This document shows positions 2,482 to 19,103 of a DNA stretch of 29,259 bases, piece after piece. The translations under genes were made by a program, and so were the position numbers. The DNA comes from a virus, in the IMG/VR virus record IMGVR_UViG_3300025598_000125, positions 1 through 29,259 of that record. One strand, 5' to 3'. A model generated the notes under the pieces. The model was not told the DNA's origin. It was given only the letters and a program-made list of their open reading frames with translations, and ran no database searches. Numbering within the stretch: the stretch's first letter is position 1; the number at the start of each line of letters is the position of its first letter.

Positions 2482-2593
2482 GTCTTTTACAGTTACTACC
2501 GTGCCAGCGCTTATACATACCAACACTTGCGGTCTTTCCGCAGTGTTCGCATGTCTTCTTTTTCTGTGATGGATGTGTACCTGCTGCTAATCA
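2477..2593 (-). pseudogene. Detached C-terminal zinc finger of the GIY-YIG endonuclease, after an in-frame UGA
   Basis: Directly after the UGA that ends the GIY-YIG ORF (2591-2593), the same frame stays open for 37 codons to a TAA at 2477-2479. It encodes LAAGTHPSQKKK and then a zinc-finger-like tail TCEHCGKTASVGMYKRWH with a last Cys four residues on (GSNCKRR). The HNH endonuclease at 18434-19078 ends with the same pattern (TCPHCG...MKRWHNDRCK). The UGA falls where an earlier repeat has Arg (NKKRVEAGTH against NLA-stop-LAAGTH), as expected of a CGA-to-TGA change. UGA is a normal stop here (gp23 uses it), so this is most simply a nonsense mutation rather than a recoded codon. Confidence 0.75.
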
Positions 2594-3265
2594 TGCTAGG
2601 TTGGCTTCTGATCCTACAAAGTTATGAGTACCCGCTTCAACTCGTTTCTTGTTTGTGTCAGGTCCCAAAAAGTTATGACGACCTTCAGCAATCAACTTCT
2701 TATTGAGCTTGCCATCAGCATTAGGACTTTTGCCATTTTGCCAGTGATGCGTACCCTTCTCAGCATTTACGGTTGATGGGTTATTGGTGATAGAGTTGTG
2801 TGTTCCTCTTTCATATGCGAGTTTAGCGTTTCTACCATCTAGATTGGGATGATTAGTTACCCACAGGTGAGATCCGGAAGTGAATGCTTCTATTTGTCTA
2901 TCACTTGCGTCTTTTCTTGCGCCTGCATCTTTTCTCATATAATGATTATCCCCTCTTATCTTTGCTGCAACTGCAGGATTAAGCATAGGGTTATTTTTTC
3001 CAGCGCCAAACCCAATAGGATCAATGTTTTGATTCATGCAGTTAGGTTTTCCATAATGTTCAGTTAGGTATTCCCCTTCTCGTTGTTTCAATGTTTCAAA
3101 ATCATCTACAAACTCTAATATCTTTCGGGTTAGTGTAGACTTATCTTTTATAGATAGAGGCCATCTACCTGAACCGATATATCCGTCATCTAGGTTTTCA
3201 GTGCTATGCCTGCCTATGTAGTACTTGCCATTGGTGTGAGTGGTTTTGTAAATAAAGTGTTTCAT
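2591..3265 (-). CDS. GIY-YIG homing endonuclease, Seg-like, lacking its zinc finger
   Basis: The product is 224 residues. The N-terminal GIY-YIG nuclease domain (residues 1 to about 75) shows FIY at 4-6, YYIG at 15-18, the conserved Arg19 and a Glu at 63 or 65 as the likely metal ligand. From about residue 85 come short NUMOD-like DNA-binding repeats with recurring 'GTHN' and 'NKK' segments. Such enzymes cut phage DNA at intron-less or gene-free alleles and spread by repair. The ORF ends at a UGA just before a C-terminal zinc finger that is still encoded in frame, so the enzyme is truncated and may have altered specificity or be dead. The ATG at 3265 gives a complete domain, but the late promoter motif lies only 5 nt upstream and no ribosome site is visible. 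Confidence 0.85.
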   Translation of the reverse strand: MKHFIYKTTHTNGKYYIGRHSTENLDDGYIGSGRWPLSIKDKSTLTRKILEFVDDFETLKQREGEYLTEHYGKPNCMNQNIDPIGFGAGKNNPMLNPAVAAKIRGDNHYMRKDAGARKDASDRQIEAFTSGSHLWVTNHPNLDGRNAKLAYERGTHNSITNNPSTVNAEKGTHHWQNGKSPNADGKLNKKLIAEGRHNFLGPDTNKKRVEAGTHNFVGSEANLA

Positions 3266-9423: not shown

Positions 9424-12400
9424 TTATATCTTAGAGTATTGCAGGATTTTCTTACCAACTCTATCATTTTTTTCAATAGTGTTAATAACCTGATCAAACT
9501 CACTAGCAAGGGATGCTATCATTTTACGTGTAATTTTTCCACCAGAATTGGAAGAGTTATTACTTGTAGTATATGGTTTGCTAGCTTCTCGATTTTTTTC
9601 TAGTTCAGCTATCACGGAGTCTGGCATAGTAGAGAGTTTCATAAGTGTGGAATCTGCTTCCACCGGAATCACCATTTCAGTACCATGTAGTTCTACGAGA
9701 TAACCGCTATCCGGACCAGAAAAGGCGCCGCCTTTCGCAGCTTTATGAATCGCATCATTGATTGACTGCACTGCAGTAGCCCAAGGTATCGTTGCTTTAG
9801 CGCCGCCTATAGCATTATTATTAGGACTCAATGGCCAAGATTGCCATGTTGTAGCTATCATATGAGTAAGTTGCTCTGCAGAGAGTTTACCGGATGCTAA
9901 ATCATTGATTTTGTCCCCTATACCTGAACCTGCTAGAACCATTTTATCTTGATTTTCAGGAGAAAACTTATCTTTCTGCGGGTCTAGTCCTGCTTTGTTT
10001 GCCCAGGCCAACAGAGTTCCTCCTACCATCTGATATTTACCGATAGCAGAAGAGTTATATTTGATACCGATAGGATTGGTTTTTCTAAAGTTTTGTCCCC
10101 ATTGATATGCCTGTCCGATGGTCATGTTCAAAAGCTCAGGATTTCTTCCTCCACCTAATACAGTATCATATGTTTTAGCTTCTTTGCTCGCGATCAATCC
10201 TAAAATTTTGCCGGCTGTTCCGCCTATCATAGTTTGTACAGATTGTAATGCACCGCCGATTCCAGCACCAATATTTCCTAGTGTACCGCTGATTGCTGAT
10301 CCAACTGAATTAGCTAAACCTCCCACTAATTTAGCAGTTTCTTGTATAGTACCCTTGACCGCGCCCTTAGTAAGTTCTCCTAGCAATCCGTTGTTTATAC
10401 CTGATAAGATTCCCATACCACTCGCAAAATTGAAAAATGCTTGTGCGTTATCTGCTGCCTTAGGATTGATATCCATTGCGGCAAATTTTTTGAAAGCATC
10501 AATAGGCCCATCTACACCAAACAAAGAATTCAAGTTGGCTCCTGCTATCGCACTAACAACATTTACTAGTTCAGACCCGCCTTTATACTGGCTTAGAGCT
10601 TTACTAAATTCGACAAAGGCATCAGCATTTGTTTTTACTTTTTTAGGATCTGCTACAGGTAATCTAGAAAAAGCAGCAAACTCTTCATACGGTGGTTTTG
10701 AACTCAGCGTTTTTGATATGCCACCGTACATTTTTTTTATGATATCAGCATAATTTCCCACTGCACCTAATGCTGAAATCGCAGTCATCGCTAATGCATA
10801 TGACACTATAGCTTTGCCGTTGTTCTCTATTTTCTTACTATCAAAATTTCTCTTCTGCAGATTTATCAACATATCTGCAGTGGATTCAAGAGGATCTTGT
10901 CCTGCTAGTTTCATAAGGGCATTGAATGCATGTATAGGTGCAGCAGCCCCCATAGCTATTACACCTGTAGTTAGCCCTGACATGCCTATGCCCACTAATG
11001 CTAGATTTTTCCCATCTATTTTGGAGAATGATTGCATTCCTTCTCCAAAGACCTTCAAAGAACCTCCCATAAGGAAAACAGAGAGTGCTGTTCCTGCTGC
11101 TAATTCTGTTATTGCAACTGCCAGCGCGCCTGCACCTAACATAACCACGGGTGCTTCTGCACCTGCTTTTGACAGTGATCCTGCTATAGTCCTTAATGAG
11201 TCTCCGAATCCTTTAGGTTTAGGTGCGGCCTTTATCAAACCACCCTCTGCTTCATTGATTATTCCAGTCTCAGCAGAACCTACTGCGGCTTCTTCTAAAT
11301 TTTTAGCAGTTCGAGCACCTTTAGCTACATTATTACCACCTCCACCAAATAGAGATGATTTCATTTTCAAAGATAATGCAGTTAACGCAACAGTCGCTAC
11401 ACCTGCTCCAGTAGCAAGCAATGCAAATTTTCCTGAATTACCTAATAAAGGGTTCACTGCTTTTATAGCATCATCAACAACTTGCCCAGCATCAATTTGC
11501 AGTTGAGTCATCTTGTTTCGTGCTTGTTGAGCAGGATCCTCGGCTACAGCACCTGTACCATTTTCATTATCTTTTAGTTGTTGTCTTATCTCTTGATTTT
11601 GTTGTTCAAAGTCGGTAGTCATGTTTTTAGTCATGTTTTGAACCAACTCAGGACCTAATCCTATACTACGTGCATATTTTTCATTGAATTCAGCAGCCTG
11701 TGCCTGATCGCGCAATCCGGTTTTAACACCGGTTCTCAGTTGGTTTAGAAACTGTACTCGCGCTTGACCGTAGCCCCTTTCATCCTTAATCTCTGTTAAC
11801 GTTCTTTTTTGTTGATCAGCTACTATCTTTTTAGGATCAATTCCCATTTTAGCAAGTATCGCACTTTCTTGTGTAACACTGCCAGTAGCCAAAGCACTCT
11901 GCATTGCTGCTAAAACTTCCGGACTATTGGTTTGTTGTGCTGCATTTAGTAACTGATCTTCAATCGCTAATTGTTTTTCTATCCTATCTTTTTCGTCTTG
12001 TGCAGTATTTGGATCATTAAATCTTGCAGTAAGCCTAGCAGTATGGAGTTCAATATTAGATTTGGCTTTAGCCTCCATCATGCTCTTTCTAGCCTGATCT
12101 GCATTTTTACCTGTAATCTTAGATACTACTGTTATATTAGCAGCATATTCCAACATTGCCTGTGTGGCTTTGCCGGTTTTAATATCATTATCACTTATTA
12201 CATTGCCGGTTTGTACCTGAAGGTCTACATAATCCGTCATCCTATCCATCAGTTCTTCTTGGCTTACACCTAATCGTTGAAATGCCATACGCTGATTAGG
12301 TGTAACCTTTAGCATTGATGCTAGGTTTTTTATACTGTCTCCTGAATTTTTACCTAAGGCAATAATACTAGTACTATTTTTATCTACTGCTTTAGTAAAG

Positions 12401-12981
12401 ATATCTAGATTTTTTGTGGTTAGTCCCAAACTATGAGCCATACTGTATAGTTTGTTTGTTGTGACTTCACCGCCGGCCCCTAATTGTGATAGTGTGTCTA
12501 CTCCTTTTAATAGATTATCTGCCTGTTCTAATCCTGCTTTAGTTGCCTTTGCAAAAGCAAACGTAAGTCCACCTAATACTGTTCCTAAAACACCAAAGTT
12601 TGAACCCAATTCAAATGCAGATTTACCTACTAAATCTACAGTATTTCCATATTTCTTAAAACCCTGTTCATTAGTGAGCGCAGCCTTGCCGAAAGACTCC
12701 AATGAATCTACTAGATTCAAGAAAGTTTTCTTCATACTTTGATTGAATCTATCCTTTGCTTCAGCGGCAGCTGAAGTCGCTTCTGATAGCTTATCTGAGG
12801 CTGTTGTGTTTTCTTGTAAGTTTTTTACATTTTTATCTGTTTCCGATGTATTCTTATTGATCTGATTTTTGGCATTGGTAGTTGGTTGAGATAAACTGTT
12901 CAAAGAACCGTTAAGCCCTGAGATAGCTGAATTCAGGTCTCTAAGTCGTTCTTCTAACTCGCGTTGTACATCAGAATCCAT
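9424..12981 (-). CDS. Tape-measure-like tail protein with lambda-R-like muramidase domain
   Basis: This 1185-residue protein starts with a coiled, Asn/Ser/Thr-rich region (1-110). A domain shared with the upstream gene follows (about 110-300: LLKGVDTLSQLGAGGEVTTN, FQRLGVSQEELMDRM). Next come alpha-helical stretches and several hydrophobic segments (about 520-700) of the kind found in tape measures. Residues about 925-1080 resemble the lambda endolysin R fold (GH104 lytic transglycosylase): YDTVLGG matches lambda YDVIVGG, SSAIGKYQMV matches STGAGRYQLL and FSPENQD matches FSPKSQD, with a Glu in SKEA near the catalytic position. Then comes a tape-measure C-terminal motif, SGPDSGYLVELHGTEMVIPV. 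The protein probably sets tail length and opens cell wall during injection (inference). The gene begins 11 nt after its paralogue ends. Confidence 0.75.
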   Translation of the reverse strand: MDSDVQRELEERLRDLNSAISGLNGSLNSLSQPTTNAKNQINKNTSETDKNVKNLQENTTASDKLSEATSAAAEAKDRFNQSMKKTFLNLVDSLESFGKAALTNEQGFKKYGNTVDLVGKSAFELGSNFGVLGTVLGGLTFAFAKATKAGLEQADNLLKGVDTLSQLGAGGEVTTNKLYSMAHSLGLTTKNLDIFTKAVDKNSTSIIALGKNSGDSIKNLASMLKVTPNQRMAFQRLGVSQEELMDRMTDYVDLQVQTGNVISDNDIKTGKATQAMLEYAANITVVSKITGKNADQARKSMMEAKAKSNIELHTARLTARFNDPNTAQDEKDRIEKQLAIEDQLLNAAQQTNSPEVLAAMQSALATGSVTQESAILAKMGIDPKKIVADQQKRTLTEIKDERGYGQARVQFLNQLRTGVKTGLRDQAQAAEFNEKYARSIGLGPELVQNMTKNMTTDFEQQNQEIRQQLKDNENGTGAVAEDPAQQARNKMTQLQIDAGQVVDDAIKAVNPLLGNSGKFALLATGAGVATVALTALSLKMKSSLFGGGGNNVAKGARTAKNLEEAAVGSAETGIINEAEGGLIKAAPKPKGFGDSLRTIAGSLSKAGAEAPVVMLGAGALAVAITELAAGTALSVFLMGGSLKVFGEGMQSFSKIDGKNLALVGIGMSGLTTGVIAMGAAAPIHAFNALMKLAGQDPLESTADMLINLQKRNFDSKKIENNGKAIVSYALAMTAISALGAVGNYADIIKKMYGGISKTLSSKPPYEEFAAFSRLPVADPKKVKTNADAFVEFSKALSQYKGGSELVNVVSAIAGANLNSLFGVDGPIDAFKKFAAMDINPKAADNAQAFFNFASGMGILSGINNGLLGELTKGAVKGTIQETAKLVGGLANSVGSAISGTLGNIGAGIGGALQSVQTMIGGTAGKILGLIASKEAKTYDTVLGGGRNPELLNMTIGQAYQWGQNFRKTNPIGIKYNSSAIGKYQMVGGTLLAWANKAGLDPQKDKFSPENQDKMVLAGSGIGDKINDLASGKLSAEQLTHMIATTWQSWPLSPNNNAIGGAKATIPWATAVQSINDAIHKAAKGGAFSGPDSGYLVELHGTEMVIPVEADSTLMKLSTMPDSVIAELEKNREASKPYTTSNNSSNSGGKITRKMIASLASEFDQVINTIEKNDRVGKKILQYSKI

Positions 12982-12992
12982 AACTTATCTCA

Positions 12993-15900
12993 CTATACCA
13001 TAGTATGTTGTAAAATTTTATTTTGTGTAGAATGACTATGCTCTAATGCAGCTAACACTCTACCTAACTTAGATTGTATCATGTGATATAACTCTAATGT
13101 ATTATCTTGATTGGAGTTATCTGCTGTCTCTGACATAATATTATTTGGAGCCGATTTTGCAGCACTACTCGTTTCAGATATATTTGTTTTTGCTAGCCTT
13201 GAAATTATAGAACTACTATTCAAAGGTGCTAGTTTTTTTCCTGGATTACTAGAAGGGAAACTAGCATTTCCTGAATCAAAAATTCCACCCGTTGCAGCTT
13301 TCATCATTTTTGAACTTGAGCTAGAAGATGGTCCTACTAAATCCCCAACAATAACTTTGCCTTCTGTTGAGTCAGCAGGTGCGGCTGAAGATCCTCCTCC
13401 ACCTGACGCTCCGGTTGAGGGTTCTGCTGGAGGTGCAGGAGCCGTTTGATTTTGTGCGGCAGCCGCTGCCGGTTCTGAACCTCCAGCAGAACCTTTAGCA
13501 TTATTAGCAACTAATCCCATAGCCTGTGCATATTTTAAGAAAGCATCTGCATTTGAACCTGCTTTAGGTCCGAAATCCATTTTTGCAAATCTAATAAATG
13601 CTTCGATAGGTCCAGTTTTGCCGAAAATTGTATTAAGACCTGCACCCGCCAGCGAGCTTACTGCATCAAGCAATCCAGGACCTCCCCGATAGGTGCTCAT
13701 TGCATTGGCAAAGTTCACAAACGCTTTAGTGTTTGTTTCTGTCTTTTTTTCATCGATGTTTAGATTGGAAAATTCTACAAACTTTGCGAAAGGAGGAGGA
13801 GATTTAAGTAATCCAGAGGCTGCATCTGCGAGTGCTCCACCTATCTTACCTAAACTGCTAATTCCTGACAGTACATTTGCTGCAGCAATTGCCGTAGAAA
13901 ATGCTACAAGAGCATCTGCATTGTTCTTTATTTTAACAGTATTAAAATTATATCTACCCAATCTATCTACTTGATCAGAAACATTTTTTATAGGGTCATC
14001 ATTGCCGCTGCCTGTGAAGAACTTTGCTATGTCGCCGATGGCGCCTAACACTTTTCCAGCGCCTAATACAGCTACCCCTGCACCTAATCCAGCCATACCC
14101 AATCCAACTGCAGCAAGATTGGGTCCATTGACTTTATCAAATTTCTGTAAACCTGTTGCTAAAGTGGGCAACGCTACTCCTATTATAGCTGTAGCTGCTG
14201 CTAATCCCGCACCGATTGCGGCTATGGCTGCTCCAATAGCTGCACCACCCAAAGCAATTTCAGGGGCACCGCCACCAGCAGCGATCAGTCCTTCTACGAT
14301 TGAATTTAAGAATCCGCCGACCATTCCGCCGCCTTGACCTGCCACTTTATTTAGATTATTCAATGCAGTTGATTCTGCTGCACCACCTGCCTCTTCAGCA
14401 GCACCAATTATACCACCACCTGCAACTTTACTGAGGTTAGTCGCAGCAGATGCACCTGCAGATTTGGATTTGCCGCCAAACAGACTCATAATACCTTTAA
14501 CAGCACCACTTCCACCTTTTTTGAGCATTGAAAATGTCATTACGGCTGCTACTCCGGCCGCTGCTATTCCTAATGCTTCAAGTGCACCGGTGTGGCCTAA
14601 CAAAGGATTCATCCAAGCAATCAGTTCATCATATTTTATATTTAGGAAGCGTTCTGTGTTGGTTAGGTCGTTGCGTGATTTTTGCGCAGGATCTTCTGCT
14701 GCCGCACCTTTACCTTGCTTCTCAGCCTCTATGCGTTTTCTTTCATCATCAATTAATTTTTGAATATCTTTACCAGAAAGTCTGCTAGCCCCCACTATTG
14801 CCTGTGCAGAATCTCCTAGAAAAGTATTAGCTACTTTGTCGTTAAATGTCATAGCTGTTCCGAGATTTTTTGTAACTCGTTGAACATTACCTGCATATGA
14901 AGTCAATAGTCCTGCAGTAGCTGTCCCTACTTCTCCTTCTTTCGTAAGATCCGTTAAATTTTTCTTGTAAGCATCATTTCGTATCTTATTCAACGAATCT
15001 TGACTATATCCCATATTCAATAGTAACTTAGCAGGACCACTAAAAGTACCAGTAGCGATATATGCCTGCATTGCAGTCAAATATTCTTTATTGCCGGTCA
15101 GAGCAGCCGCTTTTACCAGTTGTTGATCAACTAGTTGTTGTTTTTTTAAGTTGATGTACTCTTCAGAATTTTTGTCTTTTATTGAATCTAGTTTTTGCTG
15201 TTGTTCAGCATTATGGATCGCCATGTTACTGGAAGCATTAGCAGCATCTAATGCTTCTTTAGCACTTTTAGCATTCATGCCGGTAAGTTTCTCAATTACC
15301 AATAGATCCTCAGAATACTTCTCCATTTCTTCTTGGACTTTACCATTGGCAAGATTGGATTTATCTATACCTATGCCGGCTTTGACCTGCATATTGAGAT
15401 AGTCTGCCGACTGTTGTATTAACTCTTCTTGGCTAACTCCCAATCTTTGAAAAGTGTTGAGTTGTTTGGTAGTATAGGAAGTCAAGCTACCAAATTCTTT
15501 GATACCATCTCCGGACGTGTTCCCTAGAGCTACCATACTTTCACTAGCACTAGCTGCTGCTTTAGTAAATACTTCAAGATTTCTTGCATTTAGACCCATC
15601 TTATGAGCCATATCCAACATCTCGTTGGTAGTTATGTCACCAGCGGCGCCTATTCCAGAAAGGGTATCTACACCTTTTAATAGTGCATCCGTCTGCTTAA
15701 AGCTTGCTTCTAGTACTGCACCGAATGCTACCGTTAGTCCACCTAACACGAAACCCGAGGATCCAAAAGATTTAACAACTGAAAATACTGCTTTACCTAA
15801 ACCACTAGTAGCAACACCATATTTACTAAACCCTTCTTCGTTACTGAGAACAGCTTTAGTAAAACTATCCAGTGATGTTTTAGCCTGAGATAGTCCGGTC

Positions 15901-16151
15901 GATAGATTACTTCCAAGTTCTGCAACTGCTTTGGCAGCTTCATCTTCTGCTTCTTTTAGTTTGTTTGTTGCCCCCGTATTTTTATTTAATGCTCCTGTGT
16001 TTTTTGTCTGAGCAGAAGAATTCTGTTGAGTAGAGTTAGCAGAGTCATTCATAGACTTTGATAGCCCACCCAATAATGTACTTTGGTTGGCAATCAAATT
16101 ATTAAGTTGATTGATAGAATCTGTTAACTCTTTTACGACTTCAGGATCCAT
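12993..16151 (-). CDS. Tape-measure-like tail protein, paralogue without muramidase
   Basis: The 1052-residue product is a paralogue of the next gene downstream. Both share the order of a coiled N-terminus, then NEEGFSKYG, LGGLTVAFGAV, LLKGVDTLSGIGAAGDITTN, NTFQRLGVSQEELIQQ, a charged central region, an NPLLGHTGALEAL-like segment, and Ala/Gly-rich hydrophobic stretches (about 520-720). The C-terminus differs: a Ser/Pro/Ala/Gly-rich linker (about 890-950), a remnant-like ATGGIFDSG where the paralogue has the tape-measure end motif, and a final helix. No lysozyme-like domain is seen. A structural role in the tail is likely, either as a second tape measure or as a partner in a mixed oligomer. 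A late-promoter-like ACTAAATA lies upstream at 16204-16211. Confidence 0.7.
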   Translation of the reverse strand: MDPEVVKELTDSINQLNNLIANQSTLLGGLSKSMNDSANSTQQNSSAQTKNTGALNKNTGATNKLKEAEDEAAKAVAELGSNLSTGLSQAKTSLDSFTKAVLSNEEGFSKYGVATSGLGKAVFSVVKSFGSSGFVLGGLTVAFGAVLEASFKQTDALLKGVDTLSGIGAAGDITTNEMLDMAHKMGLNARNLEVFTKAAASASESMVALGNTSGDGIKEFGSLTSYTTKQLNTFQRLGVSQEELIQQSADYLNMQVKAGIGIDKSNLANGKVQEEMEKYSEDLLVIEKLTGMNAKSAKEALDAANASSNMAIHNAEQQQKLDSIKDKNSEEYINLKKQQLVDQQLVKAAALTGNKEYLTAMQAYIATGTFSGPAKLLLNMGYSQDSLNKIRNDAYKKNLTDLTKEGEVGTATAGLLTSYAGNVQRVTKNLGTAMTFNDKVANTFLGDSAQAIVGASRLSGKDIQKLIDDERKRIEAEKQGKGAAAEDPAQKSRNDLTNTERFLNIKYDELIAWMNPLLGHTGALEALGIAAAGVAAVMTFSMLKKGGSGAVKGIMSLFGGKSKSAGASAATNLSKVAGGGIIGAAEEAGGAAESTALNNLNKVAGQGGGMVGGFLNSIVEGLIAAGGGAPEIALGGAAIGAAIAAIGAGLAAATAIIGVALPTLATGLQKFDKVNGPNLAAVGLGMAGLGAGVAVLGAGKVLGAIGDIAKFFTGSGNDDPIKNVSDQVDRLGRYNFNTVKIKNNADALVAFSTAIAAANVLSGISSLGKIGGALADAASGLLKSPPPFAKFVEFSNLNIDEKKTETNTKAFVNFANAMSTYRGGPGLLDAVSSLAGAGLNTIFGKTGPIEAFIRFAKMDFGPKAGSNADAFLKYAQAMGLVANNAKGSAGGSEPAAAAAQNQTAPAPPAEPSTGASGGGGSSAAPADSTEGKVIVGDLVGPSSSSSSKMMKAATGGIFDSGNASFPSSNPGKKLAPLNSSSIISRLAKTNISETSSAAKSAPNNIMSETADNSNQDNTLELYHMIQSKLGRVLAALEHSHSTQNKILQHTMV

Positions 16152-16245: not shown

Positions 16246-17073
16246 ATGGACAACAATCCGCTAAAACAGTACTTCAGAAGACCTGCTGTATATATCAAAC
16301 TGCCTTCAGGTGGCGAGGGATATCCACCTGGTTCGCTGATCATGACTGAAAACGGAGAGCTTCCGGTATATCCTACCACTGCTATTGATGAAATCACTGC
16401 TAGGACACCTGACGCATTGTTCAATGGAATGGCTGTAGTTGAGTTGATAAAGAGTTGTATTCCTAATATTAAAGACCCGTGGGAAATTCCTAATGTTGAT
16501 TTAGATGCTATTCTAGTAGCTATAAAGACTGCATCATCACCTTCAGGTGAGATGGATATTGATTCCACATGCCCTGCATGTGCTGATACTTCTACATTTA
16601 AGGTAAATCTATCAGCAATGTTAGGTGCTATCGGAAAGCCTGATTATTCTCAACTGATCGAAGTAGGTGAATTAAAGATCAAGTTGAAGTCTATCAGTTT
16701 CAAGGATGTAAACACTGCTTCTATGGAACAATTCGAGTTTCAGCGCGTCGTGTCACAGATAGATAACATTGAAAATATCGATGAACGAAATGCAGTAATG
16801 AAGGAATCACTGCAGAAGATCACTGATCTAACAATGAAGCTACTCAGTCATTCCATAGAGTACATCGAAACTCCTACAATGAGAGTAGAAGAAAAAGAAT
16901 TCATCCTAGATTTCTTGATGCACTGTGACCGCAACCTATATATCTCTATTCGAGATCGTAGTGCTGAACTCAGACAAATGAGTGAAGTGAAGCCCATGAA
17001 GATGGTGTGTGCATCATGCGAACATCAGTATGAACAAACAATAACATTGAATCCTACTGATTTTTTCGAGTAA
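16246..17073 (+). CDS. gp26: Baseplate hub assembly protein, gp26-like (zero-frame product)
   Basis: This 275-residue protein resembles gp26 of marine T4-like phages. The N-terminus carries the pattern YIKLPSGGEGYPPGSL, then LPVYPTTAIDEI, RTPDALFNGMAVVELIKSCI and IKDPWEIPNVDLDAILVAIK. Two Cys pairs (CPAC at 109-112 and CASC at 255-258) probably bind one zinc ion. The family works in hub or tail-tube assembly and is not thought to be catalytic. An AAGGAAACCAC stretch just before the ATG supplies the ribosome site. The 3' end holds a slippery heptamer followed by a hairpin, so a share of ribosomes should shift to -1 and make a longer protein (see 17067-17297). Neighbours on both sides run on the opposite strand. 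Confidence 0.8.
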   Translation: MDNNPLKQYFRRPAVYIKLPSGGEGYPPGSLIMTENGELPVYPTTAIDEITARTPDALFNGMAVVELIKSCIPNIKDPWEIPNVDLDAILVAIKTASSPSGEMDIDSTCPACADTSTFKVNLSAMLGAIGKPDYSQLIEVGELKIKLKSISFKDVNTASMEQFEFQRVVSQIDNIENIDERNAVMKESLQKITDLTMKLLSHSIEYIETPTMRVEEKEFILDFLMHCDRNLYISIRDRSAELRQMSEVKPMKMVCASCEHQYEQTITLNPTDFFE

Positions 17074-17109
17074 CGCTTCTTAGGTCTGCCCCAGAGCAGA
17101 TCAAGAAGC
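17061..17109 (+). promoter_or_regulatory. Programmed -1 ribosomal frameshift signal
   Basis: The heptamer T-TTT-TTC (17061-17067) lies in the correct zero-frame register (GAT TTT TTC GAG TAA). It is followed by a 7-nt spacer that contains the zero-frame stop, then a stem-loop at 17075-17109. The stem pairs GCTTCTT (17075-17081) with AAGAAGC (17103-17109) and GGTCTGC (17083-17089) with GCAGATC (17096-17102). That makes 14 pairs (one G-U) with one bulged A and a 6-nt loop CCCAGA. Slip site, spacing and structure all fit known bacterial and phage -1 signals. The -1 frame then stays open for 76 codons with no good start codon of its own. Confidence 0.85.
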
Positions 17110-17297
17110 TCTTAGATTCATATGAAGAGGAATCTATCTCCATAAAAAGGACGGCACTGCACATGGCATGGAACATGCGCGGCGGAGCCACCTATGAGGA
17201 TATATTGAATATGTCCTATCAAGAAAGACTAGAGATCAACAATCTCATAGAAGAACACATGGAAGTGACTAAAAAGTCTCAACTTCCGTATTTCTAA
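17067..17297 (+). CDS. Frameshift-expressed C-terminal extension (tail assembly chaperone-like, gp26 fusion)
   Basis: Seventy-six codons in the -1 frame relative to gp26, ending with TAA at 17295-17297. There is no in-frame ATG until residue 33, so it is most likely made only as a fusion of 274 gp26 residues plus these 76 (350 in all). The sequence is helical and has a distinctive core, HMAWNMRGGATYEDILNMSY, ending KKSQLPYF. This 'MRGG' pattern resembles the short protein found after gp26-type genes in T4-like phages, and the layout resembles lambda G/G-T and P2 E/E+E', where a rare fusion recruits tail components. Function here is inferred from that parallel. An independent start at the internal ATG (17163) is possible but would lose the first third. 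Confidence 0.75.
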   Translation, partial: RVTLLRSAPEQIKKLLDSYEEESISIKRTALHMAWNMRGGATYEDILNMSYQERLEINNLIEEHMEVTKKSQLPYF

Positions 17298-17321
17298 TCT
17301 CATTCATCTCTTACTCTTGAG

Positions 17322-17388
17322 AGTTGTCCTTCGGACAACTATAATGTACCTCACTTCGTTCGGTACATTATTCTCTTTACTCTTTTTT
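17322..17388 (+). terminator. Tandem hairpins, probable terminator of the gp26 operon
   Basis: First hairpin: AGTTGTCC / GGACAACT with loop TTC (17322-17340). Second: ATAATGTACC / GGTACATTAT, 10 bp, 11-nt loop (17341-17371). A pyrimidine-rich tail follows with six T in a row at 17383-17388. They lie 25 nt after the frameshift-product stop. The T run is about 12 nt from the stem, so termination may be inefficient. Confidence 0.6.
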
Positions 17389-17847
17389 AGGCTGCTCTTA
17401 TATGTCTCTTATTGATTATTGATCTGCTGCTCGGGAGCCATGGTAGTGCTGCAACAGCACTACCTAGGATATTGGACTGCTAGCCCTGTATGCCTTTCTG
17501 TCGTCTGTTCCCCGTCATACTAGCTATTTCATGCTGTAATAACGCCACCGGTTGCTCTGTAAGGTTTAATGGGACTGTAGTGAATCTTACTATCTATTGA
17601 TAGCTTTCAGCAACGCATGTCCTGCACCATCAAGACAAAATAGATGCAGGCTCATTCAGGGTTCGCTTAACCTAACGAGAGCCCTGTCGGTATTCCATGG
17701 ACACGAATGTCCAAGCTTACTCCAGATCCGTTGATGGTGTTTCACATCTTCTCAAGGAGAGTCGAGGTACCTCGACCAAACAAATTGTAGGGTTCTGTTG
17801 GAAGCCGTGATCTTCGTGTCAGTTAGTGTAATATGTAGGTCGTATAT
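17389..17847. ncRNA. Structured non-coding region, candidate phage RNA (strand unknown)
   Basis: No frame on either strand stays open for a credible gene in these 459 nt. The region is rich in inverted repeats: GGTAGTGCTG-CAA-CAGCACTACC (17442-17464, 10-bp stem), CTATC-TATT-GATAG (17590-17603), CCTGCA/TGCAGG (17621-17650), CAGGG/CCCTG (17657-17686), TGGACA-CGAA-TGTCCA (17698-17713) and the perfect 16-nt palindrome GTCGAGGTACCTCGAC (17761-17776). No tRNA, tmRNA or self-splicing intron core could be recognised. It sits between converging genes. A structured RNA is the best explanation, but a packaging, origin or decayed-DNA explanation cannot be excluded. Confidence 0.4.
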
Positions 17848-18433: not shown

Positions 18434-19078
18434 CTATTTGGGGGTGATAATATTTTTACAGCGGTCATTGTGCCAGCGTTTCATAATGCTAACTCCACCT
18501 ACTGTACCGCAATGCGGACACGTTGAAGTAGTCTGTTTTCCTTTTAGTTTACCTAAACTTTCAGCAGATCGCCTAGCTCTCATTTCTGCTGCTTTTTCAG
18601 CTCCAAATATTTCTTCATACGATTTGCCTTTTTTCTTAACTGACATTAACGCTTTAGTTTTATCGCTATGGGTTTTGTCGTAGAACGGATTCAACGAACC
18701 CTTCATTCTGGAACTATGATTCTTTGCATTTTGTTCTCTTGCTTCAGCATATTCTTCAGGAGATATGGTATAGTTTCGGTCTTGATTTTGACTTTGTTTA
18801 TTCATCATTCTCCACAGTGCAGACCACATTTTACCGTTTTCAGCGTCAGTGGTCATTTCTGTTAATAATCTATGACAAGTGAAATGTTCGGCTGCAGTTA
18901 ACCATACCTTATTATTAATCTGATCACTGCCACCTAAAGATTTCGGGATTATATGATGATCCTCTATATATCCTCGTATTAACATTGCATCTTTTTTCTT
19001 CATAGTTCTAGGGCAAATAGCCTCAGCATTATTAATAATACTATAATACTGATTGTATGCGTCATTTTTGATAAACAT
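18434..19078 (-). CDS. HNH homing endonuclease
   Basis: With the ATG at 19078 the protein is 214 residues. This start has a strong GGAG site 7 nt upstream; an in-frame GTG at 19099 lies upstream of that site and is unlikely. The HNH motif is HHIIPKSLGG (residues 41-50), an Asn near 55-56, and AEHFTCHRLL with His65. The middle has a NUMOD3-like segment (NPFYDKTHSDKTKALMSVKK). The C-terminus is a zinc finger, TCPHCGTVGGVSIMKRWH followed by NDRC, the same type as the one cut off in the GIY-YIG gene at 2477-2593. It is a free-standing mobile gene inserted between gp46 and the PD-(D/E)XK nuclease gene, with its own late promoter. Confidence 0.88.
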   Translation of the reverse strand: MFIKNDAYNQYYSIINNAEAICPRTMKKKDAMLIRGYIEDHHIIPKSLGGSDQINNKVWLTAAEHFTCHRLLTEMTTDAENGKMWSALWRMMNKQSQNQDRNYTISPEEYAEAREQNAKNHSSRMKGSLNPFYDKTHSDKTKALMSVKKKGKSYEEIFGAEKAAEMRARRSAESLGKLKGKQTTSTCPHCGTVGGVSIMKRWHNDRCKNIITPK

Positions 19079-19103
19079 AAGTTCTCCAATAGGATTCACT
19101 TCT

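Follow-up and report, generated by a model that had tools for sequence, protein, structure and literature searches.

Does a T4-type phage make two forms of its gp26-like protein from a single gene? A short protein accompanied by a frameshifted tail-chaperone extension is a known kind of arrangement, as with G/GT of phage lambda and E/E+E' of P2. The question is raised here by the 29,259-base virus record IMGVR_UViG_3300025598_000125, a stretch of DNA that carries head, tail and replication genes of T4 type and is called, from end to end, the window below. Our results make it very probable that the locus encodes the tail chaperone of a T4-superfamily myovirus in two forms by way of a −1 slip, for which T4 appears to have substituted a gene duplication.

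A putative −1 slip site at the end of a gp26-like gene

The elements of the locus are the following:

16246-17073, + strand: gp26-like gene, 275 aa, PF12322 (T4_baseplate); putative tail assembly chaperone, short form
17061-17067, + strand: slippery heptamer T_TTT_TTC, zero frame, in X_XXY_YYZ register, allowing tandem −1 slip
17068-17074, + strand: spacer GAGTAAC, 7 nt, holding the zero-frame TAA (17071-17073)
17075-17109, + strand: stem-loop, putative stimulator, 14 pairs and one bulge, core GCTTCT/AGAAGC
17067-17297, + strand: −1 extension RVTLLR..MRGG..PYF, 76 codons plus stop, C-terminal part of the putative long form

The gp26-like ORF ends with GAT TTT TTC GAG TAA, giving a protein with the C-terminus ..DFFE, and the −1 frame is open from the CGA at 17067 to 17294, with its stop at 17295-17297. 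The first-pass annotation had described the heptamer in the right register, the 7-nt spacer with the zero-frame TAA, the 14-pair hairpin and the 76-codon −1 frame; all of these were recovered, and every coordinate given for them was correct. The −1 frame was open in only 2 of 500 shuffles in a test for chance. Among the listed ORFs of the window the T6Y heptamer occurs a single time, A-type heptamers being common there.

The short protein matches PF12322 with E 7e-13 (49.1 bits, gathering cut-off 24.5) and phrog_150 with E 1e-14. Its two CxxC pairs, C109/C112 and C255/C258, do not vary in an alignment of 79 gp26 relatives and suggest, at the level of sequence, a zinc site in the gp26 chaperone family. 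Its AlphaFold model (pLDDT 88) gave nothing at E 0.001 in a Foldseek search of the PDB, and in a viral library it found T4-type baseplate hub proteins and relatives only. Compared with the tail chaperone of HK97 (gp13, 2ob9_A) the model gave Z 5.9 at rank 20, with 98 of 107 residues aligned at an rmsd of 4.8, which is the level of background; a sequence search of the PDB returned nothing real.

Conservation of the slip site among gp26 relatives

The heptamer was looked for at the 3' end of gp26 in related phages, as the first-pass annotation had proposed. Relatives were drawn from IMG/VR and from named phages of many genera. Where the end of the gene could be read, they gave 176 distinct loci, which span the window's clade, RaK2-like and other jumbo phages, cyanophages, KVP40-like phages and Citrobacter phages; a search of named phages at the DNA level had no match. 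In 175 of the 176 loci we found T_TTT_TTY in register together with an open −1 extension (173 with TTTTTTC and two with TTTTTTT), two of the extensions being cut by a contig end and all others open. The zero-frame stop follows 9 nt after the second base of the heptamer in 161 of these 175 loci. Across the set the identity of the gp26 protein drops below 30%. Elsewhere in these genes Phe-Phe pairs are written as T TTT TTY in 2 of 87 cases, and the codon usage of the genes predicts TTTTTTC at roughly 13-16% of x-Phe-Phe sites. The two loci with TTTTTTT in place of TTTTTTC belong to XacN1 and RAS14, and in both the codon register is kept. Judged from sequence, −1 programmed frameshifting at the end of gp26 is strongly supported.

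The lone exception is Vibrio phage SD25 (L043:2267-3195), which is without a T6 site and has a different arrangement. Its gp26-like gene ends with CGTTTTTCGCTAA, the next ORF overlaps it in the −1 frame, and this phage may use another site or re-initiation. Apart from SD25, no relative was found in which an independent start and ribosome site for the downstream ORF goes together with absence of the slip site.

A stem kept beyond the needs of the protein

Downstream of the heptamer the local fold of the window stem reaches −20.4 kcal/mol, as compared to −11.2 ± 2.8 in shuffles (z −3.3). RNAalifold gave no consensus structure in the window clade or in the cyanophage clade, and therefore explicit stem tests were used together with a codon-preserving null, in which the −1 protein is held fixed while each gene's own synonymous codons are resampled. 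Against this null the window stem has a z of −3.8, and the mean z is −3.0 in the window clade (n=76), −2.5 in cyanophage-type loci (n=78) and −1.1 in other named phages (n=19). Within the stem of the window clade the Lys codon is AAG in 68 of 69 loci versus 37% elsewhere, and the Leu codon is CTT in 71 of 76 versus 16% elsewhere. In the core stem 84% of cells are paired in the window clade, as against 36-56% when the stem is slid by 1-3 bases, and 68% in the cyanophages, as against 26-47% in the slid controls.

The first-pass annotation had proposed to look for the hairpin, too, in relatives. It was recovered in the window clade and in the cyanophages, and in Atu_ph07, Phosso and XacN1 long perfect stems of a different kind occupy the same position. 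In the jumbo phages BF, CBB, RaK2 and RAS14 no stem was above the codon-preserving null, and the stem is therefore not universal. A downstream structure at the distance typical of X_XXY_YYZ frameshifting (about 5-9 nt) is present, weaker in some of the jumbo phages. Codon choice and pairing together argue that the hairpin is kept beyond what the protein requires.

These results also bear on the possibility that the polymerase, and not the ribosome, slips on the T6 run. The conserved element is indeed a run of six T, and transcriptional slippage would result in the same fusion; however, six T make a short run for a polymerase to slip on efficiently, the codon phase is fixed, XacN1 and RAS14 hold the register even with seven T, and a stem at the right distance for a ribosome is kept when measured against a null that preserves the codons, as ribosomal frameshifting would lead one to expect. 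We regard slippage during transcription as highly improbable, and return to the ribosomal −1 slip.

The −1 extension as a protein

Within the window's clade the extension is always 76 aa long; its median dN/dS is 0.20. Differences per codon position of the −1 frame are 0.36, 0.23 and 0.57, an excess at the third position, and W37, R40, G41, Y45 and E55 (numbering of the FF-extension) are invariant. The predicted structure is helical with a pLDDT of 88. The extension matched nothing in Pfam or NCBIfam, the window's own copy had no direct family match in PHROGs, and comparison with PDB structures gave no convincing fold. The substitution pattern indicates that the extension is under protein-level selection. 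A −1 frame that had decayed after an indel removed the long form, leaving only the short form to be made, is scarcely credible in the light of these data, as the frame is open wherever a contig end spares it, dN/dS is about 0.2 and the same in-register slip site is found across very divergent phages.

Could the extension instead be a small gene of its own, re-initiated or translationally coupled after the gp26 stop? It is annotated as a separate ORF in cyanophages (as 'gp51') and in several jumbo phages, and in Atu_ph07 and Phosso an ATG overlaps the gp26 stop. In many cyanophages (49 loci) an ATG lies 5 nt past the stop. In the window, on the other hand, no ATG occurs before 17163, which is 32 codons in and without a ribosome site, and among 78 loci of its clade the first ATG or GTG costs at least 17 codons in 62, the usual loss being 17-36 of the 76, with an SD-like motif at the candidate start in 1 of 78. 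Because such a start would lose many codons and the SD-like motif is nearly absent in the clade, separate translation is implausible in the window. The residues FFR..LL lie upstream of the first internal start and are conserved in the extension alignment regardless, a separate gene gives no reason for a universal slip site, and in T4 gp51 the extension is fused to a gp26-type domain. We therefore consider a separate gene very unlikely. The claim in the first-pass annotation that the extension lacks a usable start is borne out in the window's clade and fails in many cyanophages, where the ATG stands just past the stop.

The ATG of the 49 cyanophage-type loci is conserved, is in the −1 frame and falls inside the stem. 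In such loci a second, re-initiated extension product is possible.

Relation to gp26 and gp51 of T4

T4 carries two PF12322 genes, gp26 (208 aa) and gp51 (249 aa), and gp51 consists of the PF12322 domain (residues 1-201) with a C-terminal extension. Residues 147-246 of gp51 match phrog_634 with E 1e-23, and the same family is matched by the −1 extensions of S-SSM7, S-RIM8, PC-Liy1 and Ci1 with E 2e-30 to 2e-9. By these profile matches the extensions of S-SSM7, S-RIM8, the KVP40-like phage and Ci1 belong to the same family as the gp51 C-terminus. When short protein and extension of a cyanophage are fused, the product aligns with the whole of gp51 from end to end (99.4% in profile alignment), and its FFR junction falls at 'VFKLL' of gp51. 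For the window the link runs by way of Atu_ph07-type extensions, to which its own extension can be aligned from one end to the other (hhalign, 99.7%); its direct profile match to gp51 is weak (92% over 31 columns). T4 gp26 and gp51 have the PF12322 domain in common with the frameshift-type loci, and the −1 extensions of the four phages named above are relatives of the gp51 extension, that of the window probably so. T4 and its close relatives nevertheless use two separate genes without frameshifting, unlike the window.

A single PF12322 gene was found in nine of ten complete frameshift-type genomes (Atu_ph07, Phosso, RaK2, S-SSM7, PC-Liy1, Ci1, Vibrio 2.275.O, 121Q and Paride), that of SCTP-2 being below the model cut-off. 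T4 and 44RR have two PF12322 genes each, and no slip site was found in the gp26 of either. Since the frameshift genomes have one copy where T4 and 44RR have two, frameshifting would supply gp51 on demand. The proposal that the gp26 pair is a tail chaperone system controlled by frameshifting is thus supported in the divergent relatives and does not hold for T4 and its close relatives, which use two genes.

A tree built from the domain that they share puts the T4-type gp26 and gp51 proteins into one group with support 90/89, and gp51 alone has 100/99. The simplest history, an ancestral frameshift gene that was duplicated once in the T4 lineage, has moderate support from these sequence comparisons. 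An alternative that puts gp26 with the marine frameshift genes and leaves gp51 apart from them had a log-likelihood lower by 10.7 and was weakly rejected (p-AU 0.04).

Gene order varies among phages with both genes. In RB43-like PF-CE2 (L215:1501-2794) and RCIP0002 (L217) the two are tandem, 51 preceding 26, and gene 25 comes next; the order in T4 is divergent.

The relation to gp51 gives another reading of an earlier report. Sullivan et al. (2010) described gp51 of cyanophages and vibriophages as being without the first ~200 aa and yet matching the gp51 C-terminus (PMC3037559). These reduced gp51 ORFs are the same −1 extension, treated there as shortened separate genes with no mention of a frameshift (PMC3037559), and they would seem short by ~200 aa because the ORF is the −1 extension of gp26. 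On balance we think it probable that frameshifting is ancestral for the T4 superfamily, with cyanophages, KVP40-like phages, RaK2-like jumbo phages and the window's clade all included, that gp26 and gp51 are a derived duplication, and that the 'truncated gp51' of cyanophages and vibriophages is the −1 tail of gp26 and not a gene.

Neighbouring genes

Around the locus the following features were found:

9424-12981, − strand: large tail-type ORF, 1185 aa, tape-measure candidate; weak match to phrog_10613 tape measure (E 2e-5)
12993-16151, − strand: second large tail-type ORF, 1052 aa, tape-measure candidate; paralogue of the ORF at 9424-12981
17320-17373, + strand: two adjacent strong hairpins just past the extension stop, fold z −4.9

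The two large ORFs share 37% identity over 891 aa and lie in tandem, divergent from the gp26 gene; two tandem tape-measure-like proteins in one phage would be unusual. One of the two hairpins has a C-UUCG-G loop. No canonical terminator was called at 17320-17373, because no U-run follows directly, and this pair is likely to mark the transcript end. The ~550 bases that separate the extension from the resolvase gene (17298-17847) contained no convincing ORF, tRNA or Rfam match; there was no tRNA in the window, and nothing in Rfam near the slip site. Two homing-endonuclease-like genes (2591-3265 and 18434-19099, both on the − strand) stand among the structural and replication genes.

A probable tail chaperone in two forms

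According to our model most ribosomes would stop at 17071 and give the 275-aa short form, equivalent to T4 gp26. A minority would slip −1 on U_UUU_UUC, aided by the hairpin 7 nt downstream, and the slipped product would be a long form of ~350 aa, ..DFFRVTLLR..MRGG..PYF, equivalent to T4 gp51. In T4 and its close relatives two genes would have taken the place of the slip, gene 26 for the short form and gene 51 for the permanently fused long one. The sequences themselves show the elements of the site, how well these are conserved, the selection acting on the extension, the homology to gp26 and gp51 and the number of gene copies; frameshifting as such, its rate and the chaperone function are what we infer. 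If lambda gpG/gpGT is a guide, the part common to both forms may coat the tape measure protein in many copies, the rarer long form may use its extension to bring in tail-tube or hub subunits at a set ratio, and both forms may depart before the tail is complete. In lambda the ratio is 30:1, with the G part binding the tape measure and the T part the tail tube (PMC5009743).

At sequence level the arrangement after the gp26-type gene is of the kind known from lambda G/G-T and P2 E/E+E', as the first-pass annotation had recognized. In both of these systems there is likewise a short protein with a −1 extension and a slip near the 3' end. Short and long forms with a common N-terminal part are present in the sequence here, and in T4 both exist as genes. 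In S-SSM7 and PC-Liy1 (cyanophage and KVP40-like, respectively) the order is tail tube, gp26, extension, long ORF, which mirrors V-G-T-H of lambda. The gp26 system differs from that of lambda in its slip sequence and in its larger PF12322 protein with two CxxC pairs, and most members of the gp26 family have a strong downstream stem, unlike lambda.

In T4, gp51 is required and yet absent from the particle; it has been described as essential to the assembly of the hub but of unknown function, and gp26 and gp51 are both listed as hub assembly chaperones (PMC3004832). With gp51 being the fused version of the short protein and its extension, the tail-assembly-chaperone reading of the gp26 locus is well supported, in agreement with what had been suggested from the window alone.

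Vladimirov, Gautam and Davidson 2022 (Virology 566:9, PMID 34826709) dealt with the tail assembly chaperones (TACs) of T4-like phages. As cited in the PRFect paper, that study found that some T4-like phages carry short and fused long chaperone genes and do not use frameshifting (PMC10885494), and the Adele paper credits it with poly-T slip sites in T4-like TAC genes (PMC12846349). As far as these citations tell, its TACs are very probably the same proteins as those of the window. The case of the window's clade and the conservation of the stem were worked out in the present analysis. Our search of the literature on RaK2-like relatives gave no mention of a frameshift at gp26.

On this reading T4 gp51 gains a concrete identity, as the constitutive form of a frameshift product, and jumbo phages and phages of marine and fresh waters, hundreds in all, would have the annotation of the gene pair corrected. 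The T4 superfamily thereby offers a natural experiment, in which a ratio set by translation has been replaced by two genes.
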